Shown one piece after another: positions 20,320-35,805 of a stretch of DNA of 64,000 nt (position 1 is the stretch's first letter; each line of letters begins with the position of its first letter). The position numbers were made by a program, and so were the translations under genes. Source of the DNA: a virus; the IMG/VR virus record IMGVR_UViG_3300017991_000007, positions 1 through 64,000 of that record; one strand, written 5' to 3'. Under the pieces are notes generated by a model that was not told the origin of the DNA, did no database searches, and was given only the letters and a program-made list of their open reading frames with translations.

Positions 20320-20348
20320 TTGACAAGTCTCTAATGTGTTGTTAAATT
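20320..20348 (+). promoter_or_regulatory. Sigma70-type promoter
   Basis: TTGACA (20320-20325), 17-bp spacer, TAAATT (20343-20348). The leader after it contains GAAACGACACGAAAGGAG, a short version of the shared leader. Confidence 0.7.
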
Positions 20349-21197: not shown

Positions 21198-21623
21198 ATG
21201 TTTGATGCTACCTCTAATGACTTGATTTTTACTTTTGCGGATGGTTGGACAATACCGGCAAAGCTGAAATCGTTGGAACAGCACATGGATTCCCCGATTG
21301 AATACCGAGAGGGCGGTATATCAATAGCTATGCGTTTTCCGGGTCGCAGGGAGATTAATCTTACGGTTTATATGGAGGCTGCGGATGCTGCGGGTTGGCA
21401 AGAGCGTGTCAATTCGCTGGATAATTATAAAGCGGATGCGGTGTACGGTGATGCGGTACTGCATGGCTGTTGGCCCAAGAGTGTGCAAGTTGATATGGCT
21501 TGGGATGCGGCTGAGGTAGAGATTATCTCAGATTCGCTTATAGAGCCGCCTGAGATACCAGCGGTCAACTTGACTATTAAACCGGAGCGTCCGACAATGG
21601 CTAGAGTTCGTTTGATTGAATAA
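21198..21623 (+). CDS. Tailed protein 1 (C-terminal ARVRLIE)
   Basis: A 141-residue, beta-rich protein, first of nine co-oriented proteins ending in a shared tail; here TMARVRLIE. The body resembles no family I know. Unlike most members its stop does not overlap the next start, and the tail codons (GTT CGT) contain no ribosome-site-like bases. The shared tail is therefore not a by-product of a Shine-Dalgarno sequence. Confidence 0.6.
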   Translation: MFDATSNDLIFTFADGWTIPAKLKSLEQHMDSPIEYREGGISIAMRFPGRREINLTVYMEAADAAGWQERVNSLDNYKADAVYGDAVLHGCWPKSVQVDMAWDAAEVEIISDSLIEPPEIPAVNLTIKPERPTMARVRLIE

Positions 21624-21634
21624 AGGAGTACGTC

Positions 21635-22120
21635 ATGTATTGGCTGATAAAGTGCCTTTGGAAGCGAACAGCGGCAAGCAAGAGGGGTTATCCGAACCAG
21701 TGGCACAACAAAGACTTTAGAAATCGGGATACGCTTTTCCTGCGGATGCGGAAAGGCTCTTGGATGGATAAGTTCTTAGCGTGGGCAAGTATGAGTGGTA
21801 CGACTTACGGAGATTTGGTAGCCGTCCGAAATGACAGGTGGCACAAGGTCACTGCTTGCGACGGGGGCAATCCGCACTCCAAGTTTGTGATACATGAAAT
21901 GGTACATCATATGCAGTGTGAGAGGCGATTGACTTATGGAATGCAAGCGATTGCATATACCCTTGAGTGGGGTTGGAGGTGGGTTGCCGCCCTTTTCGGA
22001 AAGCAGACACACGCCCGGTACGATAACAAGTATGAGGTGGAAGCTTGGAATAAAGCCGGTCAAGATATCCGGGATTGGAAAGCCGATGGTCTTGATCCGA
22101 AACGCCCGTGGGTGATCTAA
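21635..22120 (+). CDS. HExxH putative metallopeptidase-like protein
   Basis: A 161-residue basic protein with HEMVHH near residue 88 and a downstream Glu-bearing helix, compatible with a small zincin (SprT/Wss1-like or similar); the zinc role is inferred. It has an AAAGGAG site. An exact TGCAAGCGATTGCA lies within it at 21952. It sits inside the tailed-protein operon but lacks the tail (ends RPWVI). Confidence 0.5.
   Translation: MYWLIKCLWKRTAASKRGYPNQWHNKDFRNRDTLFLRMRKGSWMDKFLAWASMSGTTYGDLVAVRNDRWHKVTACDGGNPHSKFVIHEMVHHMQCERRLTYGMQAIAYTLEWGWRWVAALFGKQTHARYDNKYEVEAWNKAGQDIRDWKADGLDPKRPWVI
21952..21965. promoter_or_regulatory. Intragenic copy of the 14-bp palindrome
   Basis: Exact TGCAAGCGATTGCA within the HExxH gene, with no promoter nearby. 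Confidence 0.5.
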
Positions 22121-22401
22121 TGAAAGGCTTGCGGTATTTTGGTCATTTCAGGACACCGGCTGAGGCGATAAAGCATATCAAGTTTGTTGGTGAGGATTTG
22201 ATGCCGGGTGATTGGTTCTATAGTAAGCGGAATGGAGAGGCTTATATTTGGGACGGGGGAAACTGGATACTTATGCTTGGCAGTACCGGGGAGCCGCAGC
22301 CGATTTTCAGAAAAAAGGAGGGTAGATTCATGGAGGTCTATGAGGTCAATTACGATTTGCCGGGTAATACCCCAATGGCTGAGGTAAGGACTATTGAGTG
22401 A
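22120..22401 (+). CDS. Tailed protein 2 (AEVRTIE)
   Basis: A 93-residue protein starting at an ATG overlapping the preceding TAA. The body is alpha then beta, with a WIDGGNW-like turn (YIWDGGNWILML). The C-terminus is PMAEVRTIE. It overlaps the next start. Confidence 0.6.
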   Translation: MKGLRYFGHFRTPAEAIKHIKFVGEDLMPGDWFYSKRNGEAYIWDGGNWILMLGSTGEPQPIFRKKEGRFMEVYEVNYDLPGNTPMAEVRTIE

Positions 22402-22633
22402 CTTCGACAAGAAAGAGGCCATGCGTGATCCGGGTATTGTGGGGATAGTTTCTCGCACCCTTGCACGGCATACCCATGTAACAGGTACGCCGGACCCGCT
22501 GAGTCCTGAGAAAGTTGCTGAGTGGGATGGTATGAGCAAAGTGAGGCAAGGGGATATAAAGCTGCCTAAAGGGGTTTACTATTGGGTGGGTGACTTCGAT
22601 TGCCCGATTGCAAAAGTAAGGACCATAGAATGA
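22394..22633 (+). CDS. Tailed protein 3 (AKVRTIE)
   Basis: A 79-residue protein. The likely start is a TTG overlapping the preceding TGA (TTGA-type coupling); the ATG at 22421 is the alternative. The C-terminus is CPIAKVRTIE, preceded by a YYWVGDF strand. No family recognised. Confidence 0.55.
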   Translation: MSDFDKKEAMRDPGIVGIVSRTLARHTHVTGTPDPLSPEKVAEWDGMSKVRQGDIKLPKGVYYWVGDFDCPIAKVRTIE

Positions 22634-22995
22634 GCAAACTACCAAAAGGTACGATAGTTACCAAGACGAAATTTGGGTACAAGCCTTATGTGGAATATCC
22701 GAGTATGGGGAATACTCATATCAATACATTGCAGGATTTGAAAGATTTTCTTGATGAGGTTGCCGCTGAGTATCTTTACAAACCAGCTACCAATGAACTG
22801 ATAAACCAAATCTACAGACGAATCAAAGCCGCCGTACCCGCTACCTTGGGGGTAAGGGTCAACCTGACAAGAGGTGGAAACGTCCGGGTTGAATTTGAGG
22901 GTGCTGAGGAAACCTTTGGTTGCTCCAATGACGATATGAAATACTTTTTCAGTGACCTTTCGTTTGACGTGGCAACCGTGCGGTGTATCCAATAA
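22630..22995 (+). CDS. Tailed protein 4 (ATVRCIQ)
   Basis: A 121-residue alpha/beta protein: two helices (about 30-75), a strand pair GVRVNLTRGGNVRVEFEG, then the tail FDVATVRCIQ. It overlaps the preceding gene by ATGA and is last before a convergent small RNA, so no downstream start can explain its tail. Confidence 0.6.
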   Translation: MSKLPKGTIVTKTKFGYKPYVEYPSMGNTHINTLQDLKDFLDEVAAEYLYKPATNELINQIYRRIKAAVPATLGVRVNLTRGGNVRVEFEGAEETFGCSNDDMKYFFSDLSFDVATVRCIQ

Positions 22996-23077
22996 AAAAA
23001 AAATGCCCGGTATGGGTACCGGGGCTTTGGAAGGGAATATGTGAATGGGTTTTTGTAGGCTTTATTCGTTTTTCAAT
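22994..23077 (-). ncRNA. Predicted small RNA (about 84 nt)
   Basis: A minus-strand promoter (TTGACA-17-TAGAAT) fires into an 84-nt interval with no start codon in any useful frame, closed by the terminator stem CCCGGTA-TGGG-TACCGGG and a ten-T run (A run on plus). The 5' part is unstructured and A/C-rich with a TTCCCTTCC stretch that could pair with G-rich ribosome-binding sites. It is convergent with the tailed-protein operon, so it could also act as an antisense terminator. Confidence 0.6.
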
Positions 23078-23083
23078 GATGCC

Positions 23084-23142
23084 ATTCTAGCAAGGCAGTA
23101 AAGCCTTGTCAAGTAAAAAATGCAATCAATTGCACTTTTTTT
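23084..23142 (-). promoter_or_regulatory. Operator/terminator module plus promoter for the small RNA
   Basis: Minus reading: A run, TGCAATTGATTGCA (23134-23121), T run, TTGACA (23112-23107), 17-bp spacer, TAGAAT (23089-23084). Confidence 0.75.
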
Positions 23143-23171
23143 CAAAATAGTTTTTAACCCCTTGATTTTAG

Positions 23172-23200
23172 TTGACAATTCATAAAAGCAGTGTTAAGTT
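23172..23200 (+). promoter_or_regulatory. Sigma70-type promoter, likely leaderless transcript
   Basis: TTGACA (23172-23177), 17-bp spacer, TAAGTT (23195-23200). The expected start, near 23207, coincides with the ATG of the next gene. Confidence 0.7.
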
Positions 23201-23206
23201 TCTTTT

Positions 23207-23482
23207 ATGGATGCGAAAAGATATAATCAAACGCCGTGCATAGGGTGTGGGTATTGTTGCCAAACCCCTTGCGTATTGGCTTTGCAGACTTACGGGATAG
23301 ACCGGCTCAAGAAAGAGCGTTGCCCGTCATTAAGGTGGGATGGTAAAAGATGGTTCTGCCAGCTTGCAGAAACGTCTGAGAGGGTCCGTAAAGACCTTTG
23401 GATAGGTGCGGGTTGTTGTTCTGCCTTAAATACCAATAGGAGAGAGAATAGACCTATTAAGCCGTGGGAATTTGGAAAATGA
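23207..23482 (+). CDS. YkgJ-like cysteine-cluster protein
   Basis: A 91-residue protein with CIGCGYCCQTPC near the N-terminus, then further Cys at C-x-x-L, FCQL and GCC, like the YkgJ metal-binding cysteine cluster. The mRNA is probably leaderless because the ATG lies about 7 bp after the -10 box and no ribosome site is present. It overlaps tailed protein 5. A related but longer protein is at 32215. Confidence 0.6.
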   Translation: MDAKRYNQTPCIGCGYCCQTPCVLALQTYGIDRLKKERCPSLRWDGKRWFCQLAETSERVRKDLWIGAGCCSALNTNRRENRPIKPWEFGK

Positions 23483-23844
23483 CTTTAAGCGGCCTCAGAA
23501 AGAAGGATAGGGATTTTGTCTTGGACCTCAAGGATTTCCTTGAGTACGAGTTGCAGAATTACGTTGTGAGGCGTTTTCAGCAAGGCGTGAATATCCTGAA
23601 TAAGCTCATATGCCAAAAAATGGAAAAGAAAATGGGTAAGGCGTATGCTATTCATAAATGGAGTTGGCAGATAAAAGAGCATCAAGGGTCGGACGTACCG
23701 GCTCATTCGCTTGGATTCCATTTGATTATATTTCCACCTAAGCCGTCACCCCTTACGTCATTCGTAGTTTCGATTGGAAAGCCGGGTTTTGAGTTTCCTT
23801 GGCCGGATCATATCGTTAAGGCAAAAGTGCGGTGTATCGCATGA
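23479..23844 (+). CDS. Tailed protein 5 (AKVRCIA)
   Basis: A 121-residue protein with a long N-terminal helical region, a Pro-rich FPPKPSP stretch and the tail IVKAKVRCIA. ATGA overlaps link it to both neighbours. Frame start at 23464 is rejected because the ATG at 23479 fits the overlap pattern. Confidence 0.6.
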   Translation: MTLSGLRKKDRDFVLDLKDFLEYELQNYVVRRFQQGVNILNKLICQKMEKKMGKAYAIHKWSWQIKEHQGSDVPAHSLGFHLIIFPPKPSPLTSFVVSIGKPGFEFPWPDHIVKAKVRCIA

Positions 23845-24164
23845 AGCTACCCATAATATTTCCGAATCAGAATGAGAAAATAGTCCATGACTTTCGCAAG
23901 GCGTTGTCTGAGGATGAGTATTTCAATGCCTCTAAAACTTCTAAAGAGGCTAAAGAGTCTGCCTTTGGGTTTGCGAATAAATACTTGCCGAAAGGGTGGA
24001 CTTTTAATGTTAGAGATTTGGCCGGGTGGGGAGATACGGTCAAGATTCAGGTGAATTTGCAGCCGCCAAGAGGGAAGGAAATCTATACTGTAGAGGCGGT
24101 CTTGCTCATTGATGACGGGGTGTACCCGCCGCCTCTGGCAACGGTAAGGCTGGTTGGAAAGTGA
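23841..24164 (+). CDS. Tailed protein 6 (ATVRLVGK)
   Basis: A 107-residue alpha/beta protein: helix (15-45), then GWTFNVRDLAGWGDTVKIQV strands, Pro-rich turn, and tail PPLATVRLVGK, one residue longer than in the other members. Overlaps both neighbours. Confidence 0.6.
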   Translation: MKLPIIFPNQNEKIVHDFRKALSEDEYFNASKTSKEAKESAFGFANKYLPKGWTFNVRDLAGWGDTVKIQVNLQPPRGKEIYTVEAVLLIDDGVYPPPLATVRLVGK

Positions 24165-24610
24165 TTGAACCACGCATAACCAAAGAGAAATTAGAGCATT
24201 TTCAGCGGACTATTGTGGATTTTCACCGCAGCAAGCTCATTATCTATGATCCCCAATACGAGTTTTATGATGCTACCCGTCAATTCTATGTTTGCACCGA
24301 TTATGATAGCTATCTAAGAAGGATTTACCGTGGATCAAAGCAGACAGATGCCGTTGTGTGGGCTGCTTTCGCTGAGGCTAAGATTCGGATGGTTGTCTTT
24401 ACCCCTATTCTCAAGTGCGCTTTGGACCGGCTTAGAAAAAAGACCCCTCGTAGGTCTAATGATCCGGTCTTTTTGAGTATGGTCCAGCTTGATACTCCTA
24501 CTATCCGAAAGTTTGAACATGCTTGCGCTCAAGGTAGTGTTTTGGGGCTTTGGGAAACGATGACCCGTGATCCCGCTCCGTTGCTTGCCCGTGTAAGGTT
24601 GGTAGGATGA
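24161..24610 (+). CDS. Tailed protein 7 (ARVRLVG)
   Basis: A 149-residue, mainly helical, Arg-rich protein ending PLLARVRLVG. It starts at a GTG overlapping the previous stop (GTGA). The body is unlike the neighbouring tailed proteins. Confidence 0.6.
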   Translation: MIEPRITKEKLEHFQRTIVDFHRSKLIIYDPQYEFYDATRQFYVCTDYDSYLRRIYRGSKQTDAVVWAAFAEAKIRMVVFTPILKCALDRLRKKTPRRSNDPVFLSMVQLDTPTIRKFEHACAQGSVLGLWETMTRDPAPLLARVRLVG

Positions 24611-24945
24611 GTAGTATAACGGAAAGGCGATACAACCGCATAAAGAAAAAGCTATACGATGCCCTTGAGTACGATATGCCATTGCTCCATGATGAGAAAC
24701 AGGGGCAGGATGAGGTATATAGAACAATCAAAAGCGTTTTGAAATCTCCGAGTACGTGGGACGTTAAAGTGTGGGTAAACAAAACGGTCCAACCGGCATT
24801 AAAGCAACCGGGTATGTTCTATTATTGTGCAAAACTGCGGGTTTTGGGAACGCCGGATGAGGTTCATTTGAATATAGTAGCCGCTCAAGGGGGAGGTAGA
24901 GATATCAAGGAATTGCGGTTGGCAAGAGTGAGGTGTATTGCCTAA
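24607..24945 (+). CDS. Tailed protein 8 (ARVRCIA)
   Basis: A 112-residue protein: N-terminal helices, a strand pair (WDVKVWVNK, YYCAKLRVLG), a Gly-rich loop and the tail LRLARVRCIA. Coupled by ATGA to the previous gene and by TAATG to the next. Confidence 0.6.
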   Translation: MSSITERRYNRIKKKLYDALEYDMPLLHDEKQGQDEVYRTIKSVLKSPSTWDVKVWVNKTVQPALKQPGMFYYCAKLRVLGTPDEVHLNIVAAQGGGRDIKELRLARVRCIA

Positions 24946-25241
24946 TGGATAAAGTTGTGGTTGATGGATTCAGGCAATTATTGAAAGACGCTATGCGGGA
25001 ATGTATGAGGATCAAGGGTATCGACTCCCCCAATAAATTTGATGATACTGCTTTGGACTTTATTCAAAATGCGTTGGAAAGGCACCTATGGCCTCAGTAT
25101 GAGGTATCGGTGCGGGTTTATAGGGGAGTATTTGAGGCTAAGATAATCCATGTTGATAATAATGAGGTAGAATGGCTTTGGCCGTATTTGGATATGCTGA
25201 TTTATAGTAAGGAGTTGGCAGTGGTAAGGACAATACAATGA
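24945..25241 (+). CDS. Tailed protein 9 (AVVRTIQ)
   Basis: A 98-residue protein: two helices, then YEVSVRVYRGVFEAKI strands, then tail ELAVVRTIQ. Overall order (helices, beta hairpin, tail) resembles tailed proteins 4, 6 and 8, so some members may be true paralogues. Overlaps the next gene by ATGA. Confidence 0.6.
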   Translation: MDKVVVDGFRQLLKDAMRECMRIKGIDSPNKFDDTALDFIQNALERHLWPQYEVSVRVYRGVFEAKIIHVDNNEVEWLWPYLDMLIYSKELAVVRTIQ

Positions 25242-25486
25242 TTAAACCAATGAAAATAGTGTTTTGGTCTTTTTCCTTCGGAACCATGTTGATCATCGTT
25301 TTAGTGATTATGCTGCTACTTTTACCGGTTTCTATACCCTCAGATGCGGTAAGTGCAACCGATTGCACTGAAAACATAACTGTCAATCCGTGCCATGACT
25401 GCCCGCCGCCGGGTCTGAGGTGGCAAACACCCGAAACTCCAAGGATGCCCCAAGTAGAGCCGCCTTGGAAGGAAAGGAGAGAGTGA
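25238..25486 (+). CDS. Small membrane-anchored protein
   Basis: An 82-residue protein: short basic N-terminus, one strong transmembrane segment (about 8-32), then a Cys/Pro-rich region (CTENITVNPCHDCPPPG) likely outside the cytoplasm. It abuts the SNase gene. It could be a spanin-like or exclusion protein, without direct evidence. A palindrome copy lies inside (25354). Confidence 0.55.
   Translation: MIKPMKIVFWSFSFGTMLIIVLVIMLLLLPVSIPSDAVSATDCTENITVNPCHDCPPPGLRWQTPETPRMPQVEPPWKERRE
25354..25367. promoter_or_regulatory. Intragenic copy of the 14-bp palindrome
   Basis: TGCAACCGATTGCA, both arms intact, inside the membrane-protein gene. Confidence 0.45.
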
Positions 25487-25855
25487 ATGTACGAATACAA
25501 AGCCCGTGTGGTTAGAGTAGTTGACGGGGATACAATGGACGTATCCATTGATCTTGGTTTTGGGGTTTACAAAAGGGAGCGGATAAGGCTTGCGGGGATC
25601 AATACCCCTGAGACTTTCGGAGTCAAGAAAACAAGTGATGAATACGCCGCAGGAATGGCTGCTAAGGAGTTCGTACAATCGGTCTGCCCCGTTGATTCAA
25701 TCATCGTTATTCGCACCGATAAGGACAAACAGGGCAAGTATGGCCGGTACATTGCCTATGTGTTCTACCATGATTCAGGGGGTGACGAACCAAATCACTT
25801 GTGCCTGAATGAAACACTGCTTGCAGCCGGTCATGCGGAAAAGGTGGATTACTAA
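25487..25855 (+). CDS. Thermonuclease (SNase) family nuclease
   Basis: A 122-residue staphylococcal-nuclease fold: VVDGDTMDV (11-19), RIRLAGINTPE (32-42) and KYGRYIAYV (about 79-87), carrying the family's Arg, acidic and Glu catalytic positions. No signal peptide, so it acts in the cytoplasm or virion. It cleaves DNA or RNA and could help degrade host nucleic acid. It follows the previous stop without a gap and overlaps the Nudix gene by TAATG. Confidence 0.82.
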   Translation: MYEYKARVVRVVDGDTMDVSIDLGFGVYKRERIRLAGINTPETFGVKKTSDEYAAGMAAKEFVQSVCPVDSIIVIRTDKDKQGKYGRYIAYVFYHDSGGDEPNHLCLNETLLAAGHAEKVDY

Positions 25856-26355
25856 TGAATGAAAGAGTCTTAGGGGATGTTACGGGTGACGGACCCCAAT
25901 ACATGACGTTGGTGTTTCCCTACGATTCAACGGGGATTCTCCTTGGCATGAAAAAAGAGGGATTCGGTAAAGGGCGTTGGAATGGTTTTGGAGGCAAGGT
26001 AAAGGAGGGAGAGCAATTAAAGGATGCTGCTGTACGAGAGTTGAAAGAGGAATGCGGCTTGGAAGCTTCCCCGGATGATCTTGTAGAGGCTGGAATCCTG
26101 AATTTCTATCCATATTATTGTGTGGTATTCGTGTATGGGTATAGGGTTAAGGGTGACTTGAGGCAGGAAAGACCCGTGGAAACGGAGGAAATGATACCAC
26201 GCCGGTTTGCTAATGAGGAAATACCTTTTGATCAAATGTGGGCCGATGATTCATATTGGCTCCCCTTGTTTTTGAAAGGTATCCCTTTTGTTGGAGAATT
26301 TCATTTTAACGGGGATGATTCAGTTAGAGAATGGTCCTTAGAGGGTATGCCGTGA
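25855..26355 (+). CDS. MTH1-like Nudix hydrolase
   Basis: A 166-residue protein with a complete Nudix box (G46 to L68; REL-x-EECGL with the catalytic Glu pair). The preceding RWNGFGGKV segment is typical of the 8-oxo-dGTP diphosphatase group (MTH1/NUDT1). It would hydrolyse oxidised or modified nucleoside triphosphates to monophosphates, cleaning the dNTP pool. It fits a nucleotide-metabolism set with the ribonucleotide reductase (49953) and dCTP deaminase (48515). Start overlaps the SNase stop. Confidence 0.82.
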   Translation: MNERVLGDVTGDGPQYMTLVFPYDSTGILLGMKKEGFGKGRWNGFGGKVKEGEQLKDAAVRELKEECGLEASPDDLVEAGILNFYPYYCVVFVYGYRVKGDLRQERPVETEEMIPRRFANEEIPFDQMWADDSYWLPLFLKGIPFVGEFHFNGDDSVREWSLEGMP

Positions 26356-26376
26356 AGTAGGAAAGGTGGATTATTA

Positions 26377-26883
26377 ATGAGGCGATATTGGGCTTACTTG
26401 AAAGTGGTTTTGAGGCACAAATACTACGTTTACAAGGCGTGTCGGATAATGAAAGTGCCTTGGTGGATTGCGGTAGTCCATGATTGGCGCAAGTTCCTAC
26501 CGAGAGAGTTTATCCCATACGCTCACAACTTCTACAATGCGGACGGCTCCAAGCGTACTGTTCGGGATAAAACCGGTGCCTACGACCCTGCGGCTCAAGC
26601 AAATGCGTTTCAGCTTGCATGGCTGGATCATCAACGGGCAAGGCACCATTGGCAAGCTTGGTGCGTGATAGGTGACGGCGGTAAGCTGAGTCCAATGACG
26701 ATGCCGGAAATCTTTGTGAGGGAGTTGGTTGCCGATTGGATGGGAGCGGGGGCTGCTTACGACAATTACAGTCCGCAGGGTTGGTACAAAGCAAATAAAG
26801 ATTCTTTGGTTGTTACCCCGTCAACTACGATGCTCATTGAGCGATTGTTGCAGGATGAGGTACCGGTAGAGAATCCTTTTTAG
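26377..26883 (+). CDS. DUF5662 family protein
   Basis: A 168-residue basic protein. The N-terminal pattern (YLKVVLRHKYYVYKACR, VVHDWRKFLPREF) and HHWQAW match the DUF5662 family of phage and bacterial proteins with conserved His/Asp residues. It ends in TAG directly before the GGGGGTAG ribosome site of the next gene, which is in the same frame. Amber read-through would fuse the two. Confidence 0.65.
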   Translation: MRRYWAYLKVVLRHKYYVYKACRIMKVPWWIAVVHDWRKFLPREFIPYAHNFYNADGSKRTVRDKTGAYDPAAQANAFQLAWLDHQRARHHWQAWCVIGDGGKLSPMTMPEIFVRELVADWMGAGAAYDNYSPQGWYKANKDSLVVTPSTTMLIERLLQDEVPVENPF

Positions 26884-26892
26884 GGGGTAGAA

Positions 26893-27147
26893 ATGGCTAA
26901 GTATCGAAAGAAACCCGTTGTCATTGAGGCGTGGGAGTTTGGCTCCGGTACGCCTAAGCCTGAATGGTTGCAAAAGGCTTTTGATGAGGGAGTGATAGCG
27001 CATGATGGTCCTTTGCTCAAGGTCAAGACGCTTGAGGGAGAAATGAGTGCCTTTCCGGGCAGCTTTATCATTCAGGGAATCAAGGGAGAAATCTACCCTT
27101 GTGAGGCTGAGATATTTGAGGCTACTTATGAGCATGTTGACGATTAA
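26893..27147 (+). CDS. Conserved small phage protein (PGD-type)
   Basis: An 84-residue protein matching a widespread uncharacterised phage family: KYRKKPVVIEAWEF at the N-terminus, KTLEGEMSAFPGSFIIQG and GEIYPCEAEIFEATYE. Ribosome site GGGGGTAG. Its function is unknown although it is common in phages. Confidence 0.7.
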   Translation: MAKYRKKPVVIEAWEFGSGTPKPEWLQKAFDEGVIAHDGPLLKVKTLEGEMSAFPGSFIIQGIKGEIYPCEAEIFEATYEHVDD

Positions 27148-27343
27148 AGCCGTGGATATCTATTACGGGGAGCATAGTCCAAGGTGGCAATATGACTGCT
27201 TTAGGTGCAAGTTTGGTTGGTCATGTGGTATGACGTGTGAGTGTGTGTTGCGAACATTCCTGATAGGAAAGATGCCGCCCGCTGAGAGGCAACAGCAAGT
27301 GAATGAGGCACTAATCTCAGCGGGCTTGGAGCCTGAGTTTTAG
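27128..27343 (+). CDS. Small Cys-containing protein
   Basis: A 71-residue protein with CFRCKFGWSCGMTCEC, probably metal-binding. It starts in the end of the preceding gene after GAGG and ends in TAG, overlapping a convergent minus-strand gene by 4 bp. Confidence 0.55.
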   Translation: MSMLTIKAVDIYYGEHSPRWQYDCFRCKFGWSCGMTCECVLRTFLIGKMPPAERQQQVNEALISAGLEPEF

Positions 27344-27561
27344 GGTTTTCCCTGAGAATGTTTGTTGGTCTGCCTTTTGTTCGGCACGGTACCGATATCA
27401 GCATAGGTCCGGCGGTAGCGCACTCTTGCTTTTTCCAAGGCTCCTACCAGATTCACGCCTTGAACGCCCCGGACACCCTCATAGCCCTTTTTGCCTTGTT
27501 CCCGTACTTGCCGGTCCCTGAATCGTACCTTAGCGCATGGGTTTTTCTTTGGTCCTGCCAT
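27340..27561 (-). CDS. Small basic protein
   Basis: A 73-residue, strongly Arg/Lys-rich protein (MAGPKKN start), last of the minus operon from 30630. GGAGAG precedes the ATG. It is probably nucleic-acid-binding. It lacks the Gly-rich N-terminal tag of its operon partners. Confidence 0.55.
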   Translation of the reverse strand: MAGPKKNPCAKVRFRDRQVREQGKKGYEGVRGVQGVNLVGALEKARVRYRRTYADIGTVPNKRQTNKHSQGKP

Positions 27562-27572
27562 TGTATCTCTCC

Positions 27573-27908
27573 TTATTCCGGTACCGGTGTGGGGAATCCC
27601 CCCGGCGGTAAAGTGTTTAGCTTACTTTCAAGCCTTATATTCGAGTCACGCAATTGCTGTAATATCGCAGTTTGCGCTTTCTGGTTCTCTTGAACATCAT
27701 CCATTTCAATGCGGTAGATATCCTCATCAACCTTTGTATCGCCAAGCTCTTTCACGTCCGTTTGTAGGTTTTCAATCGCATGGTCCCTATCTGAGTTGAC
27801 GAAATCGGAGATAAAGATGATTGCGGTGCCAATGGCTACGATACCAACGGCAACAGCCACTATCTTGCTCCAAAGCGGGAAAGGTGTTTTCTCTCCATTT
27901 TTTGTCAT
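27573..27908 (-). CDS. Membrane-anchored coiled-coil protein
   Basis: A 111-residue protein: short N-terminal tail, one transmembrane helix (about 12-33), then a long coiled coil (about 40-98) and a Pro-rich end. This layout is shared by inner-membrane spanins and some virion or tail-tip membrane proteins. It sits between MAKGR-tagged proteins and a small basic protein. Confidence 0.55.
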   Translation of the reverse strand: MTKNGEKTPFPLWSKIVAVAVGIVAIGTAIIFISDFVNSDRDHAIENLQTDVKELGDTKVDEDIYRIEMDDVQENQKAQTAILQQLRDSNIRLESKLNTLPPGGFPTPVPE

Positions 27909-27920
27909 GGCTCAAGTCCT

Positions 27921-28589
27921 TTAGGTAATAGTACGTCTGCCTACCCTTGGTCCTTGCGGTGCTGCGGGTGTGGGGGTCGGTGTTCTCAGCGGACCTCTCA
28001 TACCGGCTACCACTTGTCTCATATCTATTGTACCCCATTGTGAGGCGGCTGGAAATGTGCCGTCCCTATGGATATTCCGAATACGGTTATCCAGATTGTT
28101 GACCCGGTTTACTATGCGGTCATTTTGGGCTATGAGCCGTTGCCTTTGGCCCGGTGTGGTACCTCTGGCATTTGCGTTGGCAATAACCCTATCCTGTTGC
28201 TGGATAAGACGGCGGCGTTGGTTGATGAGGGTTTGGGCTTGCCTATCCCGTTGCTGGACTGCCATTTGCGTAATATTACGTCTGGTTTCATGCCCACGCT
28301 GCCTTATTCGTTGATCCGCATTCAGCCTCACACCCTCAATCGCTGTAGCGGCTCTTTGGGAGTCAACTCCCCACCTGAATATCGTTTGGGTGGGTAGTCT
28401 GGTTGCAGCAAGTTCCTTAGCAATCCTTACTTGGTTTTGCTCGCTGAGATTGGAGCGTCCTAAATCCATCATATCAAGACTGCCTAAGAGTCTTTGGTGT
28501 TCCCTAACTATGTTTTCAACGGGAGTTGGTTCTATAATAGCAACAGCCCCGCCGCCCGCTGCGCCTCCACCTGATCTGCCTTTAGCCAT
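27921..28589 (-). CDS. MAKGR-tagged protein A
   Basis: A 222-residue, Arg/Gln-rich protein starting MAKGRSGGGAAGGG. The body is long helix, likely coiled coil, and the C-terminus is Pro/Thr-rich ending VGRRTIT. GGAGGT precedes the ATG, and the start overlaps the stop of the next upstream gene (TAATG). Charge and shape suggest a nucleic-acid-associated or internal virion protein; this is inference. Confidence 0.6.
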   Translation of the reverse strand: MAKGRSGGGAAGGGAVAIIEPTPVENIVREHQRLLGSLDMMDLGRSNLSEQNQVRIAKELAATRLPTQTIFRWGVDSQRAATAIEGVRLNADQRIRQRGHETRRNITQMAVQQRDRQAQTLINQRRRLIQQQDRVIANANARGTTPGQRQRLIAQNDRIVNRVNNLDNRIRNIHRDGTFPAASQWGTIDMRQVVAGMRGPLRTPTPTPAAPQGPRVGRRTIT

Positions 28590-29239
28590 TATCTACCTCC
28601 AATAACTCGACTACGTTCTACTGCAAGACTGAGTAATTCAACACGCCGTCGCATATCGTTTTGCGCCCCTGAAAGCCTAAAGTTGCCCTCATTCCGCATG
28701 GTAGCTGCTATTTTGGTTTCGGATGCTCTTGCGGCTGCTAGTCTGCGTTCAAGTTGTGCCGTGGGAAATGTCCGGGCAAGGCCGTCCGCTATTGGTGAAT
28801 TACCCCTGAAAGGCGGTGGAATGCTCCCAATTCTTGTGCTTCTATTCCACATACTATTACTCACACCGTCTGGTATGGTTGTTAGGTTGCGTTGACGGGT
28901 TGACAGTACGCCGATTGTCTCTGCGGGCGGTCTTGCTCTTGATGGTAAAGGTCGTGATCCGCTGCCTTGAAGGGGAGCGGTTGGTGCGTGTTCTACGAGT
29001 ATGCCCCGTTGCCGTGCGCCTTGGAGTGGACCGGACTTGGAGCGTTGTGCGGCAAGCTCTCTGGTTCGCCATTCAGCTACCTGTGTGTTCATGGCTGAGA
29101 TTGCTCCCGGTGTATGTCCGGGGAACGGAAAGCGGGCCATGACTCGGTTTTCCTCATCATTGAGCATTGTGTTAATATCGTTGTTACTTAATGGGGCGGC
29201 TCCCGCTGCGGCTCCCCCTCCCGCTCTGCCTTTAGCCAT
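28589..29239 (-). CDS. MAKGR-tagged protein B
   Basis: A 216-residue protein starting MAKGRAGGGAAAGAAP, the same tag as the 353-residue protein at 4099. The body is Arg/Pro-rich with low-complexity stretches (PLQGSGSRPLPSRARPP). GGAGAT upstream. Ends RVIGGR. Confidence 0.6.
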   Translation of the reverse strand: MAKGRAGGGAAAGAAPLSNNDINTMLNDEENRVMARFPFPGHTPGAISAMNTQVAEWRTRELAAQRSKSGPLQGARQRGILVEHAPTAPLQGSGSRPLPSRARPPAETIGVLSTRQRNLTTIPDGVSNSMWNRSTRIGSIPPPFRGNSPIADGLARTFPTAQLERRLAAARASETKIAATMRNEGNFRLSGAQNDMRRRVELLSLAVERSRVIGGR

Positions 29240-29249
29240 ACTTTATCTC

Positions 29250-29765
29250 CTATTCCGGTTGAATGCGCCTTGCCGCAATCCGGTTTACGTCCCTGCGGGG
29301 AGTTGGCGGTGTTGGTGTGGTACCGGCGGGTCTATTTACTCTTTGACCTCTTAGAAACATCGTATCAGGGTTTGCGCCCCGGATTCGGATACCGGCTCTT
29401 TCCATATGCTCAAATTGTCTCTGCGTTGATCCAATGCGGGATATGCCTCCAATTGCGTTGACATATCGAATGCGGGCAACCTCTTGCTGCCCTAAAGCTC
29501 TATCCCGTGCGGCTCCGGTAAGTACGGATGCTCTTTGTTGCCGTCTGCGTATCTCATTTGCCATAGAAACGAGTCTATCAGCACTCCTAGCAGTGGACCG
29601 TAATTGGCGAATCTCATTGACGGCAAAGGCACGGTCAATCAAATCACCCCCGGTAGCATCCTGAATGGCAAGACGTAGGGCATCAATCTCATTATTAAGC
29701 TGTTCGTTGGTGATATCACCCATTCCGGCGGTTCCACCACTCCCGCCCGCACGTCCTTTAGCCAT
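29250..29765 (-). CDS. MAKGR-tagged protein C
   Basis: A 171-residue protein starting MAKGRAGGSGGTAG, with an Arg-rich helical body, a Thr/Pro linker, and a C-terminus RIAARRIQPE that is nearly repeated in the next two upstream proteins. AAAGGAG upstream. Confidence 0.6.
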   Translation of the reverse strand: MAKGRAGGSGGTAGMGDITNEQLNNEIDALRLAIQDATGGDLIDRAFAVNEIRQLRSTARSADRLVSMANEIRRRQQRASVLTGAARDRALGQQEVARIRYVNAIGGISRIGSTQRQFEHMERAGIRIRGANPDTMFLRGQRVNRPAGTTPTPPTPRRDVNRIAARRIQPE

Positions 29766-29778
29766 TGGTTACTCCTTT

Positions 29779-30423
29779 TTACGTTGGCTCAATACGCCGT
29801 CTTGCGATTCTTTCAGCTTGTTGCCGGGTAGCTGCCCTTTGAGGTGTTTGGGTGAATAGTCGGTTGGTCGCTGCATTGGCAACGGCTTGTGCTTCCCTGC
29901 GGGATGCTCCTGCGTCCCTTGCAGCCCTGAAAGCGTCCGCTCTTACCACGTCACGGTTTGCTGCGGTGTTAGCACCAAAAGCCCGGAATGTCCGGTTGGC
30001 GGCTCTATCCGCTGCCCGGATAGCAACAGGCGGTGCGCCGGTAGCAGTTCTGGTTTGGGTGCGGCGGTCAAGGGCATTGAGAATGATCCCATTTCGGACT
30101 GAGTGTGACCGGGTAGCTCTCTGCCTCATTGGACCAATTCTTCTACCCGCAACCCTCATATCAACACTTTCTTGGACAAAATCTCTGGAAAGACGGCCAA
30201 TGGTGCGAAGGTTGGCACTGGATATGACGCTATCGGCAAGCCTATCAGCAAGGCGTTGGAGTTGGGTGACGCTGGTTACGTTCCCAAGGTCGTTAAAGCC
30301 TCCAAGTATCTGATTCACACGGTCTGTTGCCCACTCGACATTGCCAAGTCCTGCGGCTCTACCTATTGCAGCCTCAACGCCGCCGCCCCCTGCGGCCCCG
30401 CCGCCTGATCTACCCTTTGCCAT
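29779..30423 (-). CDS. MAKGR-tagged protein D
   Basis: A 214-residue protein starting MAKGRSGGGAAGGGG. About one residue in three is Arg or Ala. Ends RIARRRIEPT. TAGGAG upstream. Internal Arg/Ala-rich segments resemble each other, hinting at repeats. Confidence 0.6.
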   Translation of the reverse strand: MAKGRSGGGAAGGGGVEAAIGRAAGLGNVEWATDRVNQILGGFNDLGNVTSVTQLQRLADRLADSVISSANLRTIGRLSRDFVQESVDMRVAGRRIGPMRQRATRSHSVRNGIILNALDRRTQTRTATGAPPVAIRAADRAANRTFRAFGANTAANRDVVRADAFRAARDAGASRREAQAVANAATNRLFTQTPQRAATRQQAERIARRRIEPT

Positions 30424-30453
30424 GACACGCTCCTAGAGGGAGAAAGGTAACTG

Positions 30454-30630
30454 TTATCCAGTGATTCGTCTTGCGGCAATGCGAGCTACGTTAGCTGCGG
30501 TGCGGGCAATCCGTCCAACCCTTTGCCGGGTGGTTGGGGTTGCGGCTCTGGCAGGACGTACACGGACGGTCTTTTCCTTTTCGATAACAACGCCGCCCCC
30601 GGCTCCCCCGCCTTTTGCTCCTTTAGCCAT
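30454..30630 (-). CDS. MAKG-tagged mini-protein E
   Basis: A 58-residue protein consisting almost only of the N-terminal tag (MAKGAKGGGAGGG), a short basic stretch and the C-terminal motif RIAARRITG. AAGGAG upstream. It is first in the minus operon and shows that the N- and C-terminal motifs can exist with hardly any body between them. Confidence 0.65.
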   Translation of the reverse strand: MAKGAKGGGAGGGVVIEKEKTVRVRPARAATPTTRQRVGRIARTAANVARIAARRITG

Positions 30631-30688
30631 GACTGACTCCTTATAAGTAGTGATTTGTCAAAGCACAATACAATCTGTGCGCTCTTAA

Positions 30689-30717
30689 AGTATAGAATAT
30701 TGGGCAAGCCGTGGCAA
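30689..30717 (-). promoter_or_regulatory. Promoter of the MAKGR operon
   Basis: Minus reading: TTGCCA (30717-30712), 17-bp spacer, TATACT (30694-30689). It has a weaker -35 than the TTGACA class and no palindrome beside it, so this operon is probably timed differently. Confidence 0.55.
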
Positions 30718-30739
30718 GCTCCTTTTGGTGGGGAAAAGG

Positions 30740-30770
30740 AAAGCCCCCTACCATACGGCAAGGGGCTTTT
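30740..30770. terminator. Bidirectional terminator
   Basis: AAGCCCC pairs with GGGGCTT, with TACC/GGCA inside, and there are T-rich tails on both strands. It ends the minus gene at 30786. Confidence 0.65.
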
Positions 30771-30785
30771 CAGTGGGGTAAGCTC

Positions 30786-31244
30786 TTAGGCTTTGGCGGG
30801 GTCCGGGTACTTTGAGCCGGGTATTTTGACCTCATAGGATTTAAGGTCATTTGGCAAGTCTTTCCAATCGGGTAGGCTATTGCCAGTATCGGACCATTGC
30901 ACCCTTACGGTACCGTCCTGCATGATTGTCAGCTTATACACATAAGCCCAATCGGTATCCCTTAGACTCTCAAAGAGGTCGGTAGGATATCCACTATAAC
31001 CACTAGACCATCCTTGCGCCCAAAGTTCTGAGGTAAGCACCATCATAAGCTTACTTACCTCATTCACTATGTTGGCAGGGGGGTAGTAATCCTCATTCGA
31101 GTTGATAAGCTGAGGTATGCGCCTCTCAGCGAACCATTGCAGGAAAGCTCCCATACCCTCTAGGTATCCATCATGGTGATGATAGATAGCTTGGGGTGTG
31201 TCACCGTCATGGCTTTCGATTAAGATACAACACCGGGTACTCAT
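30786..31244 (-). CDS. Hypothetical protein
   Basis: A 152-residue protein with a His-rich IYHHHDGYLEGMG segment near residue 20, a pattern found in uncharacterised phage and plasmid proteins. GGAGGT upstream of the ATG, with its own promoter and terminator. Function unknown. Confidence 0.6.
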   Translation of the reverse strand: MSTRCCILIESHDGDTPQAIYHHHDGYLEGMGAFLQWFAERRIPQLINSNEDYYPPANIVNEVSKLMMVLTSELWAQGWSSGYSGYPTDLFESLRDTDWAYVYKLTIMQDGTVRVQWSDTGNSLPDWKDLPNDLKSYEVKIPGSKYPDPAKA

Positions 31245-31282
31245 ACTCTACCTCCATTGATTTGAATGTCAAAGATACACAT

Positions 31283-31311
31283 ACTATAACACTACTCTAT
31301 AGCCTTGTCAA
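31283..31311 (-). promoter_or_regulatory. Sigma70-type promoter
   Basis: Minus reading: TTGACA (31311-31306), 17-bp spacer, TATAGT (31288-31283). A palindrome copy lies 67 bp upstream (31378). Confidence 0.75.
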
Positions 31312-32214
31312 GTATAAAGTGGGCAGGGCATACCCCCTATGTCACACGGCGCATAATATAAATAGAGTAGTGTGACGTGCAAACGATTGCACTCACATAG
31401 CCTATGAATCAAGGCCGGGTGGGGGTGGATCAAAGGCGGGGGGAAACCTATATTCAAGGGGTCGGGTCGCCAAGCAGTAGAGGGGTGGGGTAGTAGTACA
31501 ACACAACACACAAAGCACCTACTGTCCGTCCTCACACAACACAACATCGGGGGTACCCTATACGGTGTCCACACGTTGTCCACATTCAGCGCATCAAACC
31601 CTTGTCTAACCTTCAAATATGGACGGTAGGGGGGTACCATCATTTTTGGGTCAAAAATAAAAGTCCCTTTTCAGAAAGTAACCCTAAGCCTCATGCCGTA
31701 CAACTATAACGCACAGGACATTTTAAGTAATTAAAACAAGCACTTGCACACCCCCTCCCCCCAAAAATATAAGATACTATGAGATAAGGACACCCATTAT
31801 GGACACTATGGACATATAACCCCTGAAAAGCGGGTGGTAGGCTTGGATTTGGCTTAATTTGCCTAAAATATAAGCAGAAACGGGGGAGCTAAGGTGGTTT
31901 GTGACTATCGGTTGCACCTAAAATCTTGGGGTATGGACACTTTAATTTTCGGGGGTGTCCATATTTTTCGTTGGGGCTGACTTAGTTCCCGCCTTGTGTA
32001 TCGGAGCGGACAGTTTGCCTTTGTTTTCGCATACTTGGGGCTAAATACTTTCCACATATGGAGTTAGTCAGGGCTTTGGTGCAAAAAATATATTTCGTGG
32101 TCCACCAAATATATGTATCGTAAGTACCTGAAACAGTTAGGCTTTTTCGTTTCGAGCGTGTAAAGGGTCATCAAAAGGCTTTTTCGTGGTCCTCTTTTGC
32201 CTTATACTCTATCT
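31312..32214. other. Gene-free region with TGGACA repeats (possible replication origin)
   Basis: About 900 bp without a convincing gene. It holds TGGACA/TGTCCA units at 31566, 31577, 31800, 31809, 31934 and 31956 (plus AGGACA at 31787). One pair forms a hairpin TATGGACAC...GTGTCCATA (31932-31963). A 27-bp near-palindrome (32088-32114; ATATATTT and AAATATAT arms around GTGG/CCAC) lies further right, followed by two copies of AGGCTTTTTCGT. A 14-bp palindrome copy is at 31378. Iterons, A/T-rich stretches and the position between divergent operons suggest an origin or a control region. Confidence 0.45.
31378..31391. promoter_or_regulatory. Intergenic copy of the 14-bp palindrome
   Basis: TGCAAACGATTGCA without the A/T-tract flanks, 67 bp upstream of the minus promoter at 31311. 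Confidence 0.5.
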
Positions 32215-32754
32215 ATGAACAAACCAGCATTTCAGCCGTCCCTACAACTCGCACAGGCAAGGGGCATGATCCAAGACACTCAGGGGCGGTTGTTTACCCG
32301 GATTGTCTGCCATAGCTCCAAAGCATGTAGCGGCTGTTGCCGGGAGAGTGCAAACGTGGTCCTCACCCCCGACGAACTCCCCGTCATCATGGACCTTGCC
32401 AGAATCCGAAATATTCCCACCCCGCTTGTAGAAACCAATGACGAACAGGGCTTGATTGTTATGGCCCCGCAGCATGGCCGGTGCGTTTTCTTTTCACCGA
32501 GCAAGAATACCTGTGTGATTCATAAGGACAAGCCCTTATTCTGCCAACTTTATCCGATATGGCTCACACCCAAAGGGCCAATCATCGACGTGTCCTGTCC
32601 CATAGGTGATTTCTTTCGCAATCTTCTAAGGTCAAGAGACAAGGAAATGCTCACACTACTCCAAGCCGCCCAAGACCTACTGACACTCTACCCCACGCTT
32701 GCGAGCGTCCAAACTAATGCAATCGCTTGCACTGATTCTGTTAATTCAGATTAA
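32215..32754 (+). CDS. YkgJ-family cysteine-cluster protein
   Basis: A 179-residue protein with CSGCCRES, then GRCVFF...CVIHKDKPLFCQLYP, the spaced Cys pattern of the YkgJ (zinc/iron-chelating) family. Start at ATG 32215, about 7 bp after a TATACT box, so the mRNA may be leaderless. The 3' end contains palindrome TGCAATCGCTTGCA (32718), so the gene overlaps the regulatory region of the next operon. Confidence 0.72.
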   Translation: MNKPAFQPSLQLAQARGMIQDTQGRLFTRIVCHSSKACSGCCRESANVVLTPDELPVIMDLARIRNIPTPLVETNDEQGLIVMAPQHGRCVFFSPSKNTCVIHKDKPLFCQLYPIWLTPKGPIIDVSCPIGDFFRNLLRSRDKEMLTLLQAAQDLLTLYPTLASVQTNAIACTDSVNSD

Positions 32755-32785
32755 TCTTGACAAGCCCTTATAGTATTGTTATATT
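32718..32785 (+). promoter_or_regulatory. Operator palindrome plus promoter
   Basis: TGCAATCGCTTGCA (32718-32731) inside the YkgJ-like gene, then TTGACA (32757-32762), 17-bp spacer, TATATT (32780-32785). Confidence 0.72.
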
Positions 32786-32808
32786 GTGCATTGAAAGGGG
32801 GTAGCTAA

Positions 32809-33204
32809 ATGAAATTTGTATTCCATGATTCTTGTTATTACTGCGGGGATGAGGTAGAGGCTGAGTTTCACCAATATGAAGTAACCCGAATGCAAGTTGG
32901 TACGGCTCTTATGTCAAAGGGGTGGGAACAATGTATTAATGCGTCCGGGTGGGACGTATGGAAATGCCCAAAGTGCCAAAAAGCGGAAAGTGAGGCAACG
33001 GTGAAATTACTTGTAGAGTGGCAACCATATGATGAGGCACCTCAGAAAAGTCAAATTAAGGTCAAGGATAAAAACAATACCGCTGAGGTAAAGAAAGCTT
33101 TGTATGCGGATTACATGGAGTCCGGCGGGTTGTCTGAGGATGATATGGATGGATTTACCCCGGATACTTTCGTAACCATTCTGGAAATGTGGGAATTAAA
33201 GTGA
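32809..33204 (+). CDS. Zinc-finger-like protein
   Basis: A 131-residue protein with CYYCG near the N-terminus and CPKCQ near residue 53, probably one zinc site. GGGGGTAGC precedes the ATG. It starts an operon of three tailed proteins, overlapping the first by GTGA. Confidence 0.6.
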   Translation: MKFVFHDSCYYCGDEVEAEFHQYEVTRMQVGTALMSKGWEQCINASGWDVWKCPKCQKAESEATVKLLVEWQPYDEAPQKSQIKVKDKNNTAEVKKALYADYMESGGLSEDDMDGFTPDTFVTILEMWELK

Positions 33205-33461
33205 CGGTCAAAATCCACAACCATGAATCTTGCCCCAAGTGCGGGTATGATTTTCAGAAATTGGCAGACCCCGTGTACGTCAAAGATATGTGTCCTTTCT
33301 GCGGTTGGCCGAATAAACCGAAAGCGATAGGGGAATTTGGTAAGACGGTTTTCATGGACGGGGGTAGAGCTTTTCCTGCGGATATCCTTGAGGGTATGGC
33401 TGAGAAATACGATAAGATGGTCAATAATCCACCAATGGCTAAAGCTAAAACGATTTGTTGA
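33201..33461 (+). CDS. Tailed protein 10 (AKAKTIC), zinc-ribbon type
   Basis: An 86-residue protein starting at a GTG overlapping the upstream stop. The body is a zinc ribbon (CPKCG...CPFCG). The C-terminus PPMAKAKTIC is the most diverged tail (A for V, K for R). Its body has nothing in common with the other tailed proteins. Confidence 0.6.
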   Translation: MTVKIHNHESCPKCGYDFQKLADPVYVKDMCPFCGWPNKPKAIGEFGKTVFMDGGRAFPADILEGMAEKYDKMVNNPPMAKAKTIC

Positions 33462-33471
33462 GAGGTCTTGA

Positions 33472-33765
33472 GTGTACCTGAAATTCACCGGCAAAGATAA
33501 AGGCTCTTGGAAAATTGGATCATCGGTTTTCTGCTACAAGAACGGTGACGCTTTTCCTATGGGTAAGGTCATTGCTATCCATGAAAAAGAGGTATCAGTG
33601 GGTATCCGCTTTGTGTTTACCGCTGAGATAGAGCTTGCCTATTGGGGGGAAGCTTTGAAAATGGCAGATGGTTGTGAAAAGCTTTTTGAAAACGCCGGTC
33701 AAAAAATTTGGGTGGATATTGATCCTGAATGCCCGGAAATCGCTGAGGTACGGAGCATATGCTGA
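33472..33765 (+). CDS. Tailed protein 11 (AEVRSIC)
   Basis: A 97-residue beta-rich protein with FCYKNGDAFPMGKVIAI-like strands, ending CPEIAEVRSIC. It starts at GTG after AGAGGT and overlaps the next gene. Confidence 0.6.
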   Translation: MYLKFTGKDKGSWKIGSSVFCYKNGDAFPMGKVIAIHEKEVSVGIRFVFTAEIELAYWGEALKMADGCEKLFENAGQKIWVDIDPECPEIAEVRSIC

Positions 33766-34157
33766 CTCACAAACAGCTTATGAAAGTTGCCGGTATTCGG
33801 ACTAGGACTGAGGCGGTAGAGAAATTGGCTGAGGGTAAGATAGGGGTTGATATGGGTATCAAAAAGAGAATTCCTTGGCTGAAAATCGACACCAAGAAAT
33901 ACAAAATCCGGGCTTGGAGTGATCCTAAAACCGGAATCCCTACGAGATATAGATTCACGGTAATTGACAAGGAATTGGTTAAGGTCGTACCGGCCTCAAA
34001 GGTTTTTCTGAATAGTGTTTGTGTGCTTGATGCAATGAGCAATAGACCCGTAACCGGGGCAGATATGGAGTGGAATGCCTACTCCCCCAATAGCCCGGAC
34101 TTGGATGTAGAGATAGATTTTAGACCGCTGCTTGCTCAAGTCCGATTAATTTCTTGA
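33759..34157 (+). CDS. Tailed protein 12 (AQVRLIS)
   Basis: A 132-residue basic alpha/beta protein ending RPLLAQVRLIS. Nothing follows in the operon; the stop codon overlaps the next TTGACA box. The tail is therefore not needed for downstream translation. Confidence 0.6.
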   Translation: MLTHKQLMKVAGIRTRTEAVEKLAEGKIGVDMGIKKRIPWLKIDTKKYKIRAWSDPKTGIPTRYRFTVIDKELVKVVPASKVFLNSVCVLDAMSNRPVTGADMEWNAYSPNSPDLDVEIDFRPLLAQVRLIS

Positions 34158-35731: not shown

Positions 35732-35805
35732 GCGCTTATAGCTCAATGGTAGAGCAAGGGACTCTAAATCCCCGTGCATAGGTTCAAATCCTATTAAGCG
35801 CACCA
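35732..35805 (+). tRNA. tRNA with CUA anticodon (amber-suppressor type)
   Basis: A 74-nt cloverleaf: 7-bp acceptor (GCGCTTA/TAAGCGC), D arm GCTC-AATGGTA-GAGC, anticodon stem AGGGA/TCCCC (one A-C mismatch at its base), loop CTCTAAA with T33 and anticodon CTA, variable GTGC, T arm ATAGG-TTCAAAT-CCTAT, discriminator A, encoded CCA. Anticodon CUA reads UAG. The charging amino acid cannot be told from sequence. It could allow UAG read-through late in infection; eleven or more small genes here end in TAG, the recognised virion and packaging genes do not. Confidence 0.85.

Follow-up and report, generated by a model that had tools for sequence, protein, structure and literature searches.

A shared C-terminal peptide on thirteen dissimilar phage proteins, a candidate docking or targeting tag

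Why should a dozen small proteins of one virus, whose bodies do not resemble each other, end in nearly the same eight residues? The question is raised by the first 64,000 nucleotides (bases 1-64000, hereafter the window) of the 106,648-bp virus record IMGVR_UViG_3300017991_000007, in which twelve proteins all terminate in [LMIVK]-A-x-[VA]-[RK]-x-[IV]-x. The basis is this one metagenomic record, with gene starts inferred. As argued below, the tail may best be regarded, with a probability of roughly 0.55, as a portable docking or targeting tag private to this phage, by which the proteins would bind one common partner; loading of the proteins into the prohead is already counted within that figure.

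All twelve genes pointed out in the preliminary description lie on the forward strand, and in each of them the tail is indeed present at the stop that closes the coordinates given here. The first unit holds t21 (21198-21623, 141 amino acids, ...RPT-MARVRLIE), which has no overlap with the next gene; t22a (22120-22401, 93 amino acids, ...GNTP-MAEVRTIE), inside whose tail lies the TTG start of the next gene at 22394; t22b (22394-22633, 79 amino acids, ...FDCP-IAKVRTIE), with an ATGA overlap with the next gene; and t22c (22630-22995, 121 amino acids, ...LSFD-VATVRCIQ), the last gene, after which a terminator-like hairpin follows. The second unit holds t23a (23479-23844, 121 amino acids, ...DHIV-KAKVRCIA), t23b (23841-24164, 107 amino acids, ...YPPP-LATVRLVGK) and t24a (24161-24610, 149 amino acids, ...PAPL-LARVRLVG), which overlap their next genes by ATGA, GTGA and ATGA respectively, then t24b (24607-24945, 112 amino acids, ...IKELR-LARVRCIA), where the next gene starts at TAATG, and t24c (24945-25241, 98 amino acids, ...YSKE-LAVVRTIQ), with an ATGA overlap with the open reading frame at 25238. 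The third unit holds the zinc-ribbon-like t33a (33201-33461, ...NNPP-MAKAKTIC), which has no overlap with the next gene and whose start is either GTG 33201 (GTGA overlap, 86 amino acids) or 33189 (90 amino acids), t33b (33472-33765, 97 amino acids, ...ECPE-IAEVRSIC), which overlaps the next gene (ATG 33759), and t33c (33759-34157, 132 amino acids, ...FRPL-LAQVRLIS), whose stop codon overlaps the -35 box of the next promoter (34154). Moreover, a thirteenth member with the terminus SKIAKVKTI lies beyond the window at 104954-105406 of the same record, and overlaps by ATGA a gene whose product, named by eye, reads as a RecA-like recombinase. Two members are looser, namely AKAKTIC at 33461 and KAKVRCIA at 23844, the latter having Lys in place of the usual hydrophobic residue and being counted by eye, outside the strict motif [LMIV]A.[VA][RK].[IV]. 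The terminal residue is variable across the tails (E, Q, A, K, G, C, S or I), and IE termini occur in three of them only (21623, 22401 and 22633). When the window was scanned in six frames for ends matching A.[VAIL][RK].[IVL].{0,2}, the same twelve genes and one short chance frame were obtained.

Could such a set arise by chance? The strict motif has no internal match in the 34,513 predicted residues of about 150 genes, and every match in the proteome is located 7-9 residues from a C-end, while composition shuffles give 1.46 expected matches anywhere and 0.025 terminal ones, so that a Poisson estimate for 13 terminal cases is about 1e-31. In other phages the background, with slightly differing patterns, is 3 of about 6,260, 3 of 16,402 and 0 of 7,359 open frames. 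A chance origin of the shared tail is thus rejected by the shuffles, the Poisson estimate and the background. A DNA pattern for the overlapping tail, TNGCNNNNGTAAGGNNNATNNNATGA, has 75 matches in IMG/VR, about the chance estimate, and none with more than one tail; an isolated IATVRLIE end (L146/L185), the only one in its contig, was treated as chance.

What is conserved, the peptide or the nucleotides beneath it? The varied codons had earlier been taken to point to selection on the peptide, and this is borne out, as the conserved residues are encoded about as variedly as codon usage in the genome would lead one to expect: identical-codon pairs at the conserved Ala, Val and Ile were observed at 0.32, 0.32 and 0.31 against 0.26, 0.28 and 0.40 expected, and the mean codon entropy of the tail is 1.49 bits at the third position, 0.40 at the first and 0.25 at the second. 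Therefore selection acts on the tail peptide, a conclusion that is well supported. The Arg codons are skewed to AGG and CGG (identical-codon pairs 0.33 against 0.19 expected), and this skew tracks gene overlap, as AGG or CGG is used in 8 of the 9 members overlapping the next start and in 1 of the 4 non-overlapping ones; the tail therefore doubles as a ribosome site where genes overlap, a secondary overlay that had been anticipated for some members. The genes starting at 21198, 22630 and 33759 had been said to keep the tail with no overlapping next gene, which is correct, and 33201-33461 is a fourth. To hold instead that the ribosome-binding site or overlapping start of the next gene dictates the codons, with the peptide as a by-product, one can appeal to the nine overlapping tails among the 13 and to the eight of them with an AGG or CGG Arg. 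However, the four non-overlapping members keep the peptide with GTT-CGT, GTG-CGG, GCT-AAA and GTC-CGA, the ends are unrelated in some 25 other gene pairs of the genome that overlap or lie close together, and no Shine-Dalgarno need extends to the Ala and Ile codons. Since the peptide is kept without overlap, the by-product explanation is rejected as sole cause and is scarcely credible.

Did the tail then descend together with the proteins that carry it? The preliminary description called the bodies dissimilar, and this stands at the sequence level: the best pairwise BLAST match has an E value of 0.03, many of the local matches reported for the whole proteins being the tails themselves, and the hhalign scores of the tail-less bodies are at the control level, with a mean of 11.25 among themselves and 11.19 against other phage proteins. 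The zinc ribbon named for 33201-33461 is weakly supported, with 19.6 bits to Pfam Zn_Ribbon_1 where the cut-off is 25, and with an FmdB-type likeness in NCBIfam. The twelve bodies of the window have no significant homologue in PHROGs, Pfam or NCBIfam, and no significant homologue was obtained for the 24607 body in IMG/VR or for the 24161 body in GTDB genomes; a joined query of all twelve had no match up to E 5 in the phage collection, a surprising and therefore weak negative. The thirteenth protein (104954-105406) does match a known family, PHROG 2164 (phrog_2164), and the five homologues of that family that were compared, from Streptococcus, Klebsiella, Escherichia and Haloarcula phages, either stop short of the tail or have an unrelated end, a finding that favours an appended tag and does not count against it. 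Judged from these comparisons, whole-protein common descent does not explain the tail at any detectable level.

The residues before the tail are also peculiar. Proline makes up 17 of the 91 residues (19%; p ~4e-6) in the seven positions preceding the motif, compared with 4.1% in other genes at an equal distance from the C-end and 5.2% across the proteome, as exemplified by YPPP-LATVRLVGK, NNPP-MAKAKTIC and PAPL-LARVRLVG. A single-sequence AlphaFold model of 24945-25238 shows a fairly confident helix-helix-hairpin body, and in this model of t24c residues 74-98, including the tag, are at a predicted local distance difference test (pLDDT) below 50; this fits an unanchored tail, though a low confidence does not prove disorder. 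The model of the 21198 protein (mean pLDDT 37.5) was too poor to use. A fold search with the 24945 model gave no match at E<=0.001, and its best viral matches are small uncharacterised phage proteins, the first being a DUF7355 protein of Erwinia phage Cronus (E 0.04).

Is such an arrangement confined to this phage? Shared C-ends were screened de novo, with no motif assumed, in about 200 phage contigs (an approximate count, as some are overlapping pieces of one record) and in a further eight terminase relatives that are nearly complete. Once collagen-like repeats and chance clusters of improbable frames had been set aside, three real cases were left, namely the present phage, contig G002 (IMGVR_UViG_3300022916_000006; L188, L189) and IMGVR_UViG_3300015195_000009 (G030; L393, L409). 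Contig G002 carries about 60 small paralogues of some 70-100 amino acids with conserved starts MKYY[IV] and conserved ends ExEL[VI]Ax[LI]L; this array is a single family, that is, the scenario of one homologous fold which the preliminary description had named as refuting, but in another phage.

The third case is of a different kind. The phage IMGVR_UViG_3300015195_000009, whose terminase is 37-38% identical to that of the present phage, has eight adjacent tagged genes (L409:11210-15544), with 6 of the 7 junctions overlapping by four bases, and all eight products terminate in [LVI]EIPx[PA]R[KR]xR..., in a form like [LVI]EIPxPR[KR]xRGxVL. The element EIPx[PA]R[KR]xR is located exactly 13 residues from each C-end and nowhere else in that contig, the 12 residues in front of it are 25% proline (p ~3e-10), and the codon entropy of the tail is 1.38 bits at the third position compared with 0.72 and 0.41. 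Among the bodies two separate domain families can be told apart, besides others: domain A occurs in the L409 genes 12490, 12952 and the N-half of 14901, and domain B in 13535, 13897, the C-half of 14901 and perhaps 15221, so that gene 14901 has both domains and a single tag at its end. Neither domain family matched a body of the present phage at more than 5% probability. The layout of a body, a proline-rich linker, an operon-wide C-terminal peptide and translational overlap thus recurs with an unrelated tag, and it is this independent case that, in our view, speaks most strongly for regarding the tail as a portable functional tag. As a separate observation, the terminase gene of the second phage (L409:7377-11210) is extended at its C-terminus by a part that matches an HNH endonuclease, and close to the N-terminal ATPase region it holds an insertion of about 340 amino acids whose position is like that of an intein.

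With these cases at hand, two further explanations can be weighed. The thirteen proteins could be one highly diverged family, sharing a fold whose last strand is the best-conserved part. Such families exist, and G002 resembles the present phage in having many small proteins with a conserved C-end in one genome; moreover t22c, t23a, t23b, t24b and t24c could, by eye, share a helix-helix-hairpin layout, and distant fold-level kinship among some members is possible. However, in G002 the N-terminus and the layout are conserved too, so that one fold explains the array, while in the tagged proteins neither the N-terminus nor the middle is conserved and the bodies show no detectable homology, with hhalign scores no higher than controls. 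The zinc-ribbon-like and phrog_2164-family members are clearly different, the tail lies outside the fold in the 24945 model, and the second phage carries one tag on two unrelated domains, and we consider a single family distinctly unlikely. Alternatively, the nascent tail might slow termination and so aid re-initiation at the coupled next gene, as coupling is common in the tagged operons of both phages. Yet terminal or uncoupled genes retain the tail (stops 22995, 34157, 21623 and 33461, and 15544 in L409) and coupled genes elsewhere in the genome do without it, which leaves this explanation very improbable.

How would a docking or targeting tag work? Each protein would consist of a folded body, often a short proline-containing linker, and the 8-residue C-terminal peptide hydrophobic-A-x-V-R-x-[IV]-x; the peptide would be a short linear element bound by one partner, bringing unrelated small proteins to one place or machine, while the individual functions would be carried by the bodies. 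The accessory set would be produced from operons behind strong promoters. The sequences suggest that the tail acts through binding a partner, and because the tag differs between phages and is constant within each, this partner is more likely encoded by the phage than by the host, or else is host-specific. It is conceivable, and we put it forward tentatively as somewhat short of an even chance, that some phages have a private addressing system, in which a short C-terminal peptide, different from phage to phage and co-evolving with a phage-encoded receptor, stands behind a proline-rich linker on entire operons of unrelated accessory proteins, the bodies being swappable and the destination constant. 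Several points weigh against the docking tag. Its partner is postulated only; the last residue varies, so the exact C-end is not read, which fits docking but also other uses; the bodies are orphans, so that absent homology means none detectable only; the structural support is one informative model, made without an alignment; and no such set is seen in about 20 other relatives, taken whole or in large part, which makes the device a rare one. In the literature we found no description of phage-private C-terminal tags of this kind, which is a limited negative.

If the tag is shared in this sense, all its bearers have in common either a site of action or a machine that handles them. Most small phage genes are of no known function, and one receptor would give the first lead on a dozen orphan genes, while the tag itself could serve to find such gene sets in other genomes. 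Because a relative has the same layout with another tag, the co-evolution of tag and receptor can be tested directly, and peptides of this sort would lend themselves to the loading of foreign proteins on a phage structure.

The main rival to the docking tag is a degron, that is, a C-terminal degradation signal by which a host or phage protease would clear this class of accessory proteins on schedule. The ssrA-type degron is a short C-terminal tag active on unrelated proteins, and ClpXP recognises C-terminal signals of the -LAA type. The tail here is likewise C-terminal, short, hydrophobic and appended to unrelated bodies, and its genes lie behind strong sigma-70-like promoters typical of early expression. 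Unlike the -LAA type, however, these tails lack fixed hydrophobic C-terminal residues: they are encoded in the genes, their final residue is free to vary and often charged or polar, and an Arg or Lys is invariant in mid-tail, while the analogous tag of the second phage is basic (PRKxRG) rather than hydrophobic. A degron is accordingly held to be unlikely.

A special form of the docking tag is capsid cargo, in which the tag would bring the proteins into the prohead, to be carried to the next host. The closest described logic is the capsid targeting sequence (CTS) of T4-like phages, a terminal peptide of about 10 residues common to internal proteins with divergent bodies (PMC9026906), which has been viewed as a route for adding varied proteins (PMC9026906). 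The present tag is likewise common to proteins with divergent bodies in one phage, and in the second phage the tagged operon overlaps the end of the terminase gene. The CTS, however, is N-terminal, while the tag here lies 7-9 residues from the C-end in all 13 proteins and is unrelated in sequence; the CTS is carried by internal proteins of the virion and is cleaved by the prohead protease at a site of the (L/I)xE type, an IE ending being present in three of the tails here; and T4 internal proteins are basic, while the tagged proteins have mixed isoelectric points (pI) of 4.6-9.7. Their promoters moreover look like those of early and replication genes and are scarce in the structural module, and another set of proteins in the same phage, sharing an N-terminal MAKG[RA]xxGG start, fits T4-like cargo better. 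From these analogies capsid loading would be a version of the docking tag that is not favoured strongly, and it seems unlikely in itself.

That second shared-terminus set comprises six proteins, five of them with MAKGR and all with bodies unalike, encoded at 4099-5160 on the forward strand and at 27921-28589, 28589-29239, 29250-29765, 29779-30423 and about 30454-30640 on the reverse strand of the window; four have a measured pI of about 12 and a fifth a net charge of about +17, and the set is reminiscent of T4 internal proteins.

The tag can also be compared with the targeting peptides of family 1 encapsulins, which are short, C-terminal, present on unrelated cargo and bind a shell of the HK97 fold (PMC8346489), with the GSL-type consensus SDGSLGIGSLKRS (PMC8346489). 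Both stand at the C-terminus behind a flexible linker, as indicated here by the position, the proline enrichment and the low-confidence tail in one model. No tail here, however, resembles SDGSLGIGSLKRS, and a dozen tagged proteins per genome, of no known function, set this phage apart from encapsulin cargo. Among the part of the genes that was scanned, no encapsulin shell gene was recognised. By analogy the tag would work like the T4 CTS or the encapsulin cargo peptides and belong to neither, because its position differs from the former and its consensus from the latter. Terminal targeting peptides common to unrelated proteins are the known kind, and the shared C-terminal tail would be a variant of such peptides.

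How are the tagged genes expressed? Their units sit behind strikingly similar strong promoters at 20320, 23172, 32757 and 103289, all such calls being consensus matches. A strong sigma-70-like TTGACA-N17-TAAATT (20320-20348) precedes the unit holding t21-t22c, the promoter-like TTGACAATTCATAAAAGCAGTGTTAAGTT (23172-23200) the unit holding t23a-t24c, and TTGACA-N17-TATATT (32757-32785) the unit holding t33a-t33c, each on the forward strand. They belong to a set of about 25 near-identical promoters in the record (for example at window 2952, 12050, 19695, 32757, 34154 and 49183) with the consensus TTGACA-N17-TATANT and a TG before the second box, which recurs in the accessory and replication regions and is scarce in the structural module. 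These promoters suggest early or middle expression of the tagged genes. Adjoining the tagged operons are two cysteine-rich proteins, at window 23207-23482 (CxGCGYCC...) and 32197-32754 (CSGCCRES...), whose likeness to YkgJ-type metal-binding proteins was judged by eye, without a family search.

As for the genome itself, it belongs to a tailed phage with contractile-tail genes, in which the tail sheath, baseplate wedge and portal families were recognised, together with DNA polymerase A, a DnaB-like helicase, a primase and ribonucleotide reductase. The large terminase (9630-11456) is 36-38% identical to terminases of Stenotrophomonas, Vibrio, Rhizobium and Rhodobacter phages. Close relatives were not found in IMG/VR or the phage collection, nor by scans with the head protein or the DNA polymerase as single proteins; among the matches listed, alignment scans gave distant kin only, at up to 51% identity for ribonucleotide reductase and up to 44% for terminase, and two of these scans may have missed a relative at middle distance. 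The relatives compared are accordingly distant, and some of them are fragments.

Two minor features of the window may be added. An 810-amino-acid protein encoded at 54330-56762, between the portal and a head-protein family, has a weak PHROG match only, and its start resembles a prohead protease as judged by eye. Besides, a tRNA with a CTA anticodon is located at window 35732-35805 and is likely an amber suppressor; TAG is the stop of 15 of the 116 forward genes, and its read-through at 26883 and 46713 would continue into the next reading frame.

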